Source: Verrucomicrobiia bacterium (GTDB lineage Bacteria > Verrucomicrobiota > Verrucomicrobiia > Verrucomicrobiales > Akkermansiaceae). Taken from it: a stretch of DNA of 64,000 bases. Below are positions 1 through 6,249 of the stretch, one piece after another. Both the position numbers and the translations under genes were made by a program. The stretch lies in assembly GCA_030432565.1 (NCBI GenBank), contig JAUIGV010000022.1, positions 1 to 64,000 on the forward strand, written 5' to 3'. Each line of letters opens with the position of its first letter. Positions within the stretch are counted from its first letter, which is position 1. Below the pieces are notes generated by a model, which was not told the origin of the DNA, searched no databases, and saw only the letters and a program-made list of their open reading frames with translations.

Positions 1-1228
1 CGACCGAGATCGCTTCCTCGACGCGGAAGAAGACCTTGCTCTCGGCTGCCAGTTCCGGGAAGTCGGCAAGATTGACCCCAAACGTGGTGGATTCACCGGC
101 TTCGCCAACAACACCGTCGTCGAGATCGAAATCCCAGTTCTCCAAATCGGTGGAGTAGCGGACCGCGTAAATGCGGCCCGGAGCTGAGTTCCAGGTTAGG
201 CTCAATGTGGTGCCATTAACGTCAGTGGTGTAGTCAATCGCGGTGATGGCGAGATCCACAGTGGGAGCGCCCACGGTGACGGTGCCTTCGCCAATGATCC
301 AGTCTTCTGCGTTGGTGTAAGTGCCATTTGGAACCGGAGTGTAGGTGCCGGTGCCTTCGATATCGATTTGTAGCAGCCCTTCACCGATGAACTCGTTGAC
401 TCCGGCGTCCATGTTAAAAACACCTTTGGCTCCAATGAAAACGGCTGTGGCATCGTCGTCGATGGCACCTTCTCCGCCGACGGCATTGGCCGTGATTCGA
501 AGCGAGGCGATACCTCCGCCGAGTCCCGGGCGACCTTCAAGCGTCAGTTGCGGAGCCTGGCCAAATGCCCCCACCTTATCGGCAACCCAGTAGCTTGGTT
601 GTGGATTGTCCGCGTTACCATTGTCATTGAAGAGCCTGATATCTCCGGTGATCGTGTTTGGGGCATCCCCGGTAATGATGATGAGTTCATCTTCGTCGAC
701 ACCATCAGAAAAGCCGCCACTCCGTGAAAGAAGGAGGCTTCCGGGCCCACTTATGATTCCCTCGATCGTGAGGCTTCGGTCTCTTTCCTGGCGGATATGG
801 AATGGCAATGGGAACTCCGGGAGGTTCAGGTCCACGATCGTATTGTCGCCGCCATGTTTGAAGACGATATCCTGGTTGCCTGTGCCGGTCCCGGTAATTG
901 CGGCAATGGTGCCGATGGTGACGCCCTCGTTGGTCAACCTGATGGAGTTGTTGATCAATGAACTCCGGTCGATCGTGAAGGTGTCTTCACCATCGGGGAA
1001 TCCGTTGAGGCCGTCATCTTCACCACTGACCAAGGTCCAGTTCACGGGGTTGGTCCAGAGTTGCTGGAATGACTGTCCATCGTCATTGGGGGCTCCTTCG
1101 TTTGTTGCAGCATTGTCTATTCTAAAGGCGAACACTGCTGCTGGTGCCGTGTCGAAAAGGACGACAATTGTCGACAACGCTGCTGCGAGGCCGATTCCGT
1201 TTTTTGATATTTTAGTAGTCATATTCAT
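1..1228 (-). CDS. Secreted passenger/autotransporter-like repeat protein, 3' end beyond left edge
   Basis: The frame is open on the minus strand from ATG at 1228 to position 1, about 409 codons, and runs off the window. A second in-frame ATG lies at 1222. It opens with a signal-peptide-like stretch (basic residues, then GLAAALSTIVVLF) and is clearly a paralog of the next gene upstream. Both share GQSFQQ, NNS.RLT.EG, ITGTGTGNQDIVFK, LSRSGGFSDGVD and ADKVGAFGQA. After the shared body this protein does not end in a PEP-CTERM tail. It continues into a fibronectin-like segment (LSLTWNSAPGRIYAVRYSTD) of the kind often seen at the C-termini of verrucomicrobial exported proteins. The beta-rich body resembles PEP-CTERM/autotransporter passenger repeats. 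Function unknown; secretion is inferred from the signal peptide. No Shine-Dalgarno is evident. Confidence 0.8.
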   Translation of the reverse strand, partial: MNMTTKISKNGIGLAAALSTIVVLFDTAPAAVFAFRIDNAATNEGAPNDDGQSFQQLWTNPVNWTLVSGEDDGLNGFPDGEDTFTIDRSSLINNSIRLTNEGVTIGTIAAITGTGTGNQDIVFKHGGDNTIVDLNLPEFPLPFHIRQERDRSLTIEGIISGPGSLLLSRSGGFSDGVDEDELIIITGDAPNTITGDIRLFNDNGNADNPQPSYWVADKVGAFGQAPQLTLEGRPGLGGGIASLRITANAVGGEGAIDDDATAVFIGAKGVFNMDAGVNEFIGEGLLQIDIEGTGTYTPVPNGTYTNAEDWIIGEGTVTVGAPTVDLAITAIDYTTDVNGTTLSLTWNSAPGRIYAVRYSTDLENWDFDLDDGVVGEAGESTTFGVNLADFPELAAESKVFFRVEEAISV

Positions 1229-3592: not shown

Positions 3593-5080
3593 CTATTCAA
3601 AATACTTCTTGATGAAGTCATCGGCATTTTTGCGGTGGGCTTCACGTTTCTCATCGGGCATTTTATCGAGGAGGCGGACCATCATAGAGAGACGATATTG
3701 CGAGGCGAAAAAGTCGCGGTGATCCTCGATGAAGGTCCAGTAGAGACCATCCCAGATGTCGCACCACTCACCTTTGGGGAAGTCCGACATTTTCCGGATA
3801 TAGTTGGAACCTGAAATGTAGGGTTTGGTTGAAAAGACCCCGCCGTCGGCAAATTGGGACATTCCGTAAACATTGGGGACCATGACCCAGTCGTAAGCAT
3901 CGATGAAGAGCTCCATAAACCATTTGTAAACGGCATCCGGGTGGATGCGGCAAAGGAGCATGAAATTGCCGAGAACCATGAGTCGCTCAATGTGGTGGGT
4001 GTAACCATCCTCCAAAAGAGCATGGATGGTATGGTCGATGGGCTCGATCCCGGTGGTGCCATCGTAGAAGGCCGCAGGCATTTTACGGGTGAACCCCCAA
4101 AAGTTCTCCTTCCGCTCCATAATGCCGTGGCGGAGGTAGATGATGCGCATGAATTCGCGCCACCCGATGATCTGGCGGAGGAATCCTTCGAGTGAATTAA
4201 GCGGAATCCTTGAATTGTTTTCGGCAGCTTCCATGGCGGCCTCCACGATTTCATCGGGGGTGATGAGGCCAATGTTGAGCGGTGGAGTCAGGACCGAGTG
4301 AAATATGACGCGAACCCGGGTTGAGATGGCATCCTCGTAGTCGCCGAAGAGTTCGAAGCGCTCCTCGAAGAAGAGAGACATCGCGTAGAGCGCTTCCCGA
4401 CGACTGGAGGGGTAGGTGAAATTCTCCTGCATGCCGGGGGCATCCGGGAATCGCCTGGCAACCCACTTTTGGGCAGCGGAGACCTCGTCGTTTGGCGTGG
4501 GAGAGTAGGGCTCGGGAACCGGTTGTTTTTTTGGAAGCTTCTTGCGATTTTCGGCATCATAGGACCATTTGCCGCCGACTGGTGAGCCGTCGGGTTCCAG
4601 GAGGAGGTCCATGCGCTTTCGTTGGGCTTCGTAAAATTTCTTCATGAAGGGCTTCTTCATGTCATCCATGATTTCCTCCATCCATTCATTGGGCGTGAGA
4701 AACATGGGCGACGGGAGTTTCTCTAGATTTAGGTCGCGCTTTTTGGCGAAACGTTGCAGCCGGCGTTCGATCAGGTAGTCGACGGTATCGACATAGACGA
4801 GGGTTTCGACGTCTTTTGGGACGTGCTTTTCGAGGAGGAGGTCGGTGCGACTGTTTTTTTCAGGCAGGTCAACATAGGTGAGATTTTCCCGGCCATCGGC
4901 CCAGCGTTTCATACTGGCTCGATGAAGAATCAGTTTTTTCGCGTGGAAGTTGAGGGGCTGTTCCCGGTCGGTTCCAAAGAACAGGGGATCCTCGATGAGA
5001 AGGGCCGGGTGATCGTCGGCAAGAGCCGGATGGGAAAGAAAAAGCTGATGAGGAAAGACAAGAGCGAGTGAACGCGACAT
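3593..5080 (-). CDS. Cryptochrome/photolyase-related protein (DPRP, FeS-BCP clan) lacking cluster cysteines
   Basis: A protein of 495 residues. I chose the ATG at 5080 (MSRSLALVFPHQLF) because this is where family members begin; an upstream ATG at 5113 adds only 11 residues. It matches the deoxyribodipyrimidine photolyase-related family: N-terminal Rossmann-like antenna domain, then the helical FAD-binding domain with NSLEGFLRQIIGWREFMR, GNFMLLCRI, NVYGMSQFADGG and ISGSNYIRKMSD. Characterised members repair (6-4) photoproducts and hold a [4Fe-4S] cluster through four cysteines. This protein has only two cysteines, at about 377 and 440, and the usual C-x2-C and CPFN loop before GLYW is replaced by a short FPKGEWCDIW segment. 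It therefore cannot form the canonical four-cysteine cluster. DNA repair or light sensing is the likely role, but the electron-transfer route must differ. It converges with the regulator gene. Confidence 0.88.
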   Translation of the reverse strand: MSRSLALVFPHQLFLSHPALADDHPALLIEDPLFFGTDREQPLNFHAKKLILHRASMKRWADGRENLTYVDLPEKNSRTDLLLEKHVPKDVETLVYVDTVDYLIERRLQRFAKKRDLNLEKLPSPMFLTPNEWMEEIMDDMKKPFMKKFYEAQRKRMDLLLEPDGSPVGGKWSYDAENRKKLPKKQPVPEPYSPTPNDEVSAAQKWVARRFPDAPGMQENFTYPSSRREALYAMSLFFEERFELFGDYEDAISTRVRVIFHSVLTPPLNIGLITPDEIVEAAMEAAENNSRIPLNSLEGFLRQIIGWREFMRIIYLRHGIMERKENFWGFTRKMPAAFYDGTTGIEPIDHTIHALLEDGYTHHIERLMVLGNFMLLCRIHPDAVYKWFMELFIDAYDWVMVPNVYGMSQFADGGVFSTKPYISGSNYIRKMSDFPKGEWCDIWDGLYWTFIEDHRDFFASQYRLSMMVRLLDKMPDEKREAHRKNADDFIKKYFE

Positions 5081-5371: not shown

Positions 5372-6178
5372 TCAGCTTTCCGTGATCCGCACCTGCGTTC
5401 GCTGTCGCTTTTGGAAGCGCGAGAGATGAGTAAACCCGGCATCCTTGATCAACTGCAGGCCTCTTTCAAAATCGCGGGCGACTTCGGATGGATGGTGGGC
5501 ATCCGACGAGAGGGTGATGGGGATGTTGGCCCCGGCGGCGAGAGTGAGGAATTCGGCGGACGGGTATTGCTCGGCGCAGGGTTTGTGAAAGCCTGCGGTA
5601 TTGAGCTCGATGGCGACATCGTTCCCGGCGATGGTCTCAATGACCGGGTCGTAAAAGCGGCGGAGGTCGCCGGAGGGACGGTAGGCAAATTTTTTGATCA
5701 GGTCGGGGTGGCCCAGGAAGTCGAAAAGCCCCGACTTGGCCATGGTGGTGTATTCCTTCCAGTAAAGGCTCCAGATTTGCTCAACGTCAGTTTCAGCCCA
5801 GCGCCCGAGCCATTTTGGATTGTCAAAATCCCATTTGTCGCCGAGGTAGTGGATAGATCCAATAAGGTAATCCCAATCGTATTGCGAGGCGAGGTGGCCG
5901 ATCCAGTCTCCGCAGTTGGGGAGCCAGTCGCACTCCAGCCCGGCACGAACGGAGAGTTTCTCACCAGCATGTTTCCGGGCACGCGCGATCCAATCGAAGT
6001 ATTGGGGAAGATTCTCCTCCAACATCCGCCACTCATCGAAAGGCTCGGGAGCCTGCGGAGCGTGGTCGGAAATGCCGTATTCGGCGAGGTTTTCGGCGAT
6101 GGCTTGATCGATGTATTCCTCGGGTTTGCCTTCGGCATGCAGGCAAAGAGGCGTGTGGGTGTGGTAATCTGCGAGCAT
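5372..6178 (-). CDS. PHP-domain histidinol-phosphatase (HisK/HisJ type)
   Basis: A protein of 268 residues from ATG 6178. It begins MLADYHTHTPLC, the first metal-binding motif of the PHP superfamily, followed by later ligands in GISDHAP, AGLECDW, IGSIHYL, FDFLGHPDL, IELNTAGF and SSDAHHP. This pattern is typical of trinuclear-metal histidinol-phosphate phosphatases of the HisJ type, which make histidinol in histidine biosynthesis. No other his genes are nearby, so the substrate is inferred from family alone; other phosphoesterase activities are possible. The start codon lies about 70 bp from that of the divergent phosphotransacetylase-like gene, so the two may share a promoter region. Confidence 0.82.
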   Translation of the reverse strand: MLADYHTHTPLCLHAEGKPEEYIDQAIAENLAEYGISDHAPQAPEPFDEWRMLEENLPQYFDWIARARKHAGEKLSVRAGLECDWLPNCGDWIGHLASQYDWDYLIGSIHYLGDKWDFDNPKWLGRWAETDVEQIWSLYWKEYTTMAKSGLFDFLGHPDLIKKFAYRPSGDLRRFYDPVIETIAGNDVAIELNTAGFHKPCAEQYPSAEFLTLAAGANIPITLSSDAHHPSEVARDFERGLQLIKDAGFTHLSRFQKRQRTQVRITES

Positions 6179-6249
6179 GGGTGCTTTGGCGTTGTCGGTG
6201 GGGCATTCTCTTACTAGGTTTCCCTCCCGGGCGCAAAGCCTCACACGTC

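Follow-up and report, generated by a model that had tools for sequence, protein, structure and literature searches.

A minus-strand gene in the 64,000-nucleotide stretch of contig JAUIGV010000022.1 that was analysed as a whole (hereafter the window), from a Verrucomicrobiia bacterium of the Akkermansiaceae, very probably encodes a photolyase that uses light to repair DNA and belongs to the cluster-free branch, published as subgroup M, of the prokaryotic (6-4) family. We favour this reading because the predicted fold is complete, none of the four ligands of the [4Fe-4S] cluster is present, the ligands are absent throughout the branch, and the residues on the FAD side and on the lesion side are conserved. 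The missing cluster has already been described for this branch of the family; the window protein is a further member of it, and its remaining value is that of a natural comparison for PhrB.

A complete predicted photolyase fold without cluster ligands

The coordinates proposed in a sequence-only reading of the window proved to be exact, and the strand, which had not been given there, is the minus strand (Table 1). Two Pfam domains were recognized in the 495-residue product, PF04244 (DPRP; E 8.8e-49, 166.7 bits against a cut-off of 22.1) and PF03441 (FAD_binding_7; E 1.3e-7, 31.7 bits against a cut-off of 27). PF00875, the N-terminal domain of class I CPD photolyases, gave no match at E <= 0.001, and no NCBIfam model scored above its cut-off, the two best reaching 19.6 and 19.5 bits where 317 and 885 were required.

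Table 1. Features of the photolyase locus, in positions of the window.
Feature	Position	Strand	Details and basis
Gene of the probable cluster-free prokaryotic (6-4) photolyase	3593..5080	minus	495 aa, ATG at 5080, stop TAG ending at 3593; translation, Pfam, AlphaFold model and structure search
Shortened loop FPKGEWCDIW, residues 434-443, replacing the loop of PhrB C438/C441/C454	3752..3781	minus	Alignment
Codon of P347, aligned to ligand PhrB C350	4040..4042	minus	Pro in 118/119 distinct cysteine-less rows
Codons of W387 F388 (PhrB W390 Y391), predicted medial and proximal path residues	3917..3922	minus	Alignment; roles as reported in PMC5887102 and PMC12082625
Codons of H362 H363 I364; H362/H363 correspond to PhrB H365/H366 of the (6-4) lesion site	3989..3997	minus	Alignment; role of H366 as reported in PMC4619345
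PHP-domain gene, upstream of the photolyase gene and 291 bp away	6244..5372	minus	

The AlphaFold model of the window protein, built with 50 aligned sequences, had a pLDDT of 92.9 and a pTM of 0.93. When it was used in a structure search the ten best matches were all FeS-BCP (6-4) photolyases (Z 41.0-43.7, rmsd 2.1-2.6, 473-485 residues), and the next family was represented by Thermus DNA photolyase at Z 26.2, where a family missing from the search results is not counted as excluded. The whole fold is like that of PhrB (4dja), RsCryB (3zxs), Cc(6-4)PL (9hnk), the Vc enzyme (7ykn) and SePhrB (8ijy), and the FeS-BCP family fold that had been read from the sequence is borne out by these matches together with PF04244 and PF03441.

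Only two cysteines, C377 and C440, occur in the whole protein, just as the sequence-only reading had it. The PhrB numbering used here was taken from an alignment to 4dja that was checked at the ligand positions, and according to this alignment none of the four ligands is kept: C350 is replaced by P347, a deletion has removed the segment that carries C438 and C441, and D441 stands in the place of C454. C440 lies one residue before the position aligned to PhrB C454, and C377 is aligned to no ligand position. The replacement of the ligand loop by FPKGEWCDIW was likewise read correctly. With none of the ligands left, the claim that the usual [4Fe-4S] cluster cannot be held stands on sequence grounds, and a lack of this capacity is well supported. 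The reading frame is intact and the gene is under purifying selection, with dN/dS values of 0.05-0.17 (six of seven pairs, with unsaturated dS), which makes it unlikely that the ligands are missing through a sequencing error or because the copy is decaying.

Two states of the cluster site in the family

Among 235 distinct rows of the family, a count that takes in the window protein and three PDB chains, all four ligand cysteines were found in 116 and none of them in 119, and not a single row had one to three. A targeted hunt for intermediates in 20 extra rows from the Chitinophaga, Prochlorococcus and Microbacteriaceae-bin phylum samples, mostly near the score boundary between the two types and at the low end, yielded 15 rows with the four cysteines and 5 without. 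The 235 rows remained from 252 that had been gathered from named genome contigs, from the relatives and the phylum of the window, from the genomes behind twelve of those loci, from the phyla of a Chitinophaga, a Prochlorococcus, a Rhodobacteraceae bin and a Microbacteriaceae bin, and from the three PDB chains, which are partial and were taken from printed alignments (4dja, 8ijy, 9q8f). A partial sequence (L030) and L001-L004, which are two copies of the window gene and two other photolyases, were excluded before counting. Sampling was not random, cysteine-less rows having been obtained mostly through searches with the window protein and four-cysteine rows mostly as best PF04244 matches, and 116:119 is thus no frequency. 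In the five phylum samples PF04244 was matched in 189 genomes and rows were read from 126, the unread rest including 25 low-scoring ones in the sample from the Chitinophaga phylum.

Loss of the ligands in one organism alone is ruled out by the first alignment, in which all 29 rows besides the window protein, each of them a best match to it, have the short loop as well. Further rows from the same relatives were of the four-cysteine type in 12 of 14 cases, among them a row (L122, genome G024) that belongs to the same genus, and both types are present within the order of the window. The occurrence of the four-cysteine type in the same order and genus means that the state of the cluster site goes with the lineage of the gene rather than with the taxonomy of the host. 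On the cysteine-less side are Verrucomicrobiota, Planctomycetota, Bacteroidota, Ignavibacteriota and Prochlorococcus. The Bacteroidota of this branch include Chitinophaga rhizophila and Mucilaginibacter flavus, which are presumably non-marine. Ma et al. (2019), in their work on PromaPL, are said to have explained the missing cluster by a marine shortage of iron, and because of these presumably non-marine members such an explanation would not cover the whole branch.

One four-cysteine member (L248) has a shortened cluster loop and sits on a very long branch. Two contigs, from bins labelled Microbacteriaceae (L035) and Rhodobacteraceae (L062), carry a photolyase that either shares 84% identity with the window protein or has a Prochlorococcus-type loop, and these contigs are probably binning contamination.

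A phylogeny against PhrB-type proteins, as had been suggested in the sequence-only reading, placed the window protein on the cysteine-less side. In a careful tree of 43 rows, from which the cluster columns had been removed, one branch parts the four-cysteine from the cysteine-less proteins with a support of 100/100 and in 100% of 200 bootstrap trees, and the same split was obtained in a quick tree of 99 rows (100*). Prochlorococcus marinus MIT 9401 (L075), whose protein is 49% identical over residues 3-491, lies inside the cysteine-less branch. There was no sign of several independent losses, both trees requiring a single change, with room for rare cases outside the sample. Rooting the tree with four photolyases from other classes gave the four-cysteine group a support of only 54; the outgroup branch was very long (2 x 4.35 changes per column), and L172, a four-cysteine row, adjoined the cysteine-less branch, so that this rooting favoured neither a loss of the cluster nor its original absence there.

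Cysteine-less members have been reported before. In a study that sorted 110 prokaryotic 6-4 photolyases into seven subgroups, the four cysteines were described for all but subgroup M, which comprises 20 members from multiple lineages, P. marinus PromaPL among them (PMC9178010). A homologue of Tyr460 was reported in 2015 to be absent from 7% of 464 members, the cysteines being missing there too (PMC4619345), and most picocyanobacterial Phr2 proteins are described as devoid of them (PMC9426592). Several orthologues without the cysteines have also been mentioned together with the suggestion that the cluster is perhaps not needed for repair in all of them (PMC12082625). The word Verrucomicrobia does not occur in the papers that a literature search on this topic listed.

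Prochlorococcus loci stood in for PromaPL when the window protein was placed with subgroup M. The Prochlorococcus copies also lack the four cysteines and are 49-50% identical to the window protein over nearly its full length, and the two copies that were placed on trees are both inside its branch. No difference in the cluster-loop signature was found between them, the hosts belonging to Cyanobacteriota and Verrucomicrobiota, respectively. A place in a family that never has a cluster, which the sequence-only reading had named as counting against its own claim, is what emerges here, in the form of a branch published as subgroup M (PMC9178010). Phr2 of Synechococcus RS9916 is described as being of the PromaPL type, and forms from subcluster 5.1 are reported without the four cysteines (PMC9426592).

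A possible substitute for the cluster

The cluster loop is about 10 residues shorter in cysteine-less than in four-cysteine rows, and where the loop of the FeS-BCP proteins ends the window protein has the motif WxxxWD, of which W439, W443 and D444 are invariant in all 119 distinct cysteine-less rows. Structure prediction of the 430-450 region, an analysis that had been proposed together with the initial observation, gave a short loop right after which a helix (residues 438-453) begins, with pLDDT values of 95-97 for residues 431-450. From this model we propose that the structural job of the cluster in PhrB would be taken over by the shorter loop running straight into helix 438-453, and that the invariant W439, W443 and D444 and the near-invariant P347 would form a packed aromatic corner as a substitute. 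In PhrB itself, every reported attempt to obtain a cluster-free protein led to poor expression or insolubility, the tested cysteine mutants being either not expressed or insoluble (PMC4619345).

Could an iron-sulfur cluster or another metal still be bound, through ligands other than cysteine or in a dimer? Such a role would suit C440, which is a cysteine in 98 of the 119 distinct cysteine-less rows, but the same position is occupied by Gln, Glu, Thr or Ala in the other 21, C377 is aligned to no ligand position, and the loop with two of the ligands is gone. We therefore regard metal binding of this kind as extremely unlikely.

The electron path to FAD

The second half of the initial claim, that the protein would need a different electron path to the FAD or a different function, was not supported, as the medial tryptophan, the lesion-site histidines and the Mg2+ aspartates are all kept and are shared with the FeS-BCP proteins (4dja, 8ijy, 9q8f and 113 other rows). 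In the Caulobacter enzyme the cluster is reported to lie about 18 A from the FAD, direct transfer between them was judged negligible, and the path was assigned to a proximal Tyr/Phe pair, a medial W389 and a distal W341 (PMC12082625). The medial residue of the window protein, W387 (PhrB W390), is found without exception in the distinct rows of both groups (119 cysteine-less, 116 four-cysteine). Its proximal pair is F388/F392, an Fx3F motif that has been reported in another family member (PMC12082625). Photoreduction and repair were retained in PhrB Y391F (PMC5887102), and a Phe is found at PhrB position 391 in 49 of the 116 four-cysteine rows.

The distal tryptophan, PhrB W342, is Y339 in the window protein. 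Replacement of W342 is reported to block photoreduction (PMC5887102), and since this residue is essential in PhrB, it is at Y339 alone that the window protein truly departs from the path as known. Cysteine-less rows have Tyr at this position in 101 of 119 cases, Trp in 16 and other residues in 2; of the 116 four-cysteine rows, 16 lack Trp there and have T (7), A (4), Y (2) or one of three residues seen once each, so that this Trp was not taken as a defining feature of the family. The outer step of the path is thus not conserved in the window protein, yet variation at this step is seen with and without the cluster, and the two are not strictly linked. A coupling of electron path and cluster as a rule is ruled out by the variation of the path within the four-cysteine rows, although Tyr at the W342 position is still far commoner in the cysteine-less ones. 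For the window protein we propose that FAD would be photoreduced via F388/F392, W387 and, as the outer residue, Y339.

Eleven four-cysteine members from the phylum of L035's genome (L221-L224, L226, L227, L229-L232 and L234) have T, A, L or R at the position of PhrB W342 and Met at that of Y391. It is unlikely that the described photoreduction path is the same in these eleven proteins, although the ligands are kept.

Lesion site, substrate and antenna

H363, L367, M407, Y421 and Y427, which correspond to PhrB H366, L370, M410, Y424 and Y430, are identical in every cysteine-less (119/119) and every four-cysteine row (116/116), and H362 is found in 118/119 and 116/116, respectively. D175 and D250, the equivalents of D178 and D253 that are predicted to hold Mg2+ in the Caulobacter enzyme (PMC12082625), are identical throughout both groups (119/119 and 116/116). 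In PhrB, repair is reported to be abolished in H366N, and Y424 to be required for lesion binding and repair (PMC4619345). The sequence evidence favours (6-4) repair for the window protein: reduced FAD would pass an electron to the (6-4) photoproduct, H363 would donate the proton, and D175 and D250 would hold Mg2+.

The main rival to a (6-4) photolyase is an enzyme that repairs CPDs, or both types of lesion, the loss of the cluster having gone along with a change of substrate. The nearest functional evidence comes from Phr2 of Synechococcus RS9916, which raised the UV-B survival of E. coli without photolyase or SOS response nearly tenfold in a light-dependent manner, and with this and three other constructs survival after UV-C was 10 to 20 times higher, again depending on light (PMC9426592). 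The same paper, published in mBio in 2022, reports a protective effect of phr2 under UV-B, a source of relatively few (6-4) lesions, in Synechococcus RS9916 as well as in E. coli, and its authors predict CPD and not (6-4) repair for cysteine-less Phr2 (PMC9426592). Against this stand the residues for (6-4) repair, PhrB H366 and Y424, and the site-lining L370 and M410, with their complete identity in the cysteine-less rows; PromaPL, moreover, is named a 6-4 photolyase elsewhere (PMC9178010), and the genome of the window already has a photolyase of class I CPD type, as judged by domain content (L002). On balance we consider CPD repair unlikely. The UV hyper-resistance operon nudix-phrB of Prochlorococcus MED4 (PMC2955971) was set aside as in vivo evidence for this branch, since at the MIT 9401 copy no nudix-like neighbour was seen by eye among ORFs of at least 90 aa.

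A further ORF of 391 aa in the same genome (L003; G000:C30:48300-48653) contains a photolyase FAD domain (residues 75-191) but gave no match to PF00875. It is presumably similar to the single-strand photolyases with reversed domains (Z-domain, Phr7-like), a designation based in part on PMC9426592.

A cryptochrome-like light sensor, in which the fold is kept and DNA repair is gone, would be in keeping with the regulatory effects described for RsCryB of the same family (PMC9178010) and with the Tyr in place of the outer Trp of the photoreduction path. The checked lesion-site residues are kept, however, a signalling extension is absent (residues 3..495 of the model align to 2..508 of the PhrB chain), and a relative confers light-dependent UV survival on E. 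coli (PMC9426592), and a sensor role is accordingly very unlikely.

The two groups also differ near the N terminus. At residues 10-12 the window protein has P-H-Q where FeS-BCP proteins have the motif G-D-Q, the Asp being replaced by H11. This Asp is present in 108 of the 116 four-cysteine rows; in the 119 cysteine-less rows a P is followed by H in 83, by N in 31 and by something else in 5, and then by Q in 116. For the Caulobacter enzyme a contact between D11 and the lumazine antenna is reported (PMC12082625), and we infer that D11 is the Asp of GDQ, the Caulobacter row of the alignment starting later. Lumazine synthase is present in the genome of the window, as in all 14 control genomes; for the antenna of the cysteine-less branch, in which this Asp is replaced, lumazine would be a candidate at most.

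Genome context

A nearly full-length tblastn match to the PHP-domain gene was found beside the photolyase in 7 of 21 loci, and a fragment at the end of the locus in 2 more. The photolyase is at least 80% identical to that of the window in all loci with a match. The other 12 of the 21 loci gave no match to the PHP gene, an absence that is weak where the flanks are only about 1.5 kb. A conserved operon was rejected, as the PHP gene adjoins the photolyase only in close relatives, and a functional link is not claimed.

Implications

It may be asked whether the cysteine-less proteins form an enzyme class of their own, in which the cluster was exchanged as a unit for an aromatic WxxxWD plug in one all-or-none step, while the antenna site (P-H/N-Q instead of GDQ) and the range of substrates (CPDs, or both types of lesion) changed along with it. 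To this combination we assign a low probability. If it were true, the branch would be a natural cluster-free control for the purpose of the [4Fe-4S] cluster of PhrB, and what this cluster does in prokaryotic (6-4) photolyases has been called still elusive (PMC12082625). Natural cluster-free relatives sidestep the insolubility or lack of expression of the PhrB cysteine mutants, and the all-or-none pattern together with the WxxxWD/Pro signature points to residues that are worth examining.
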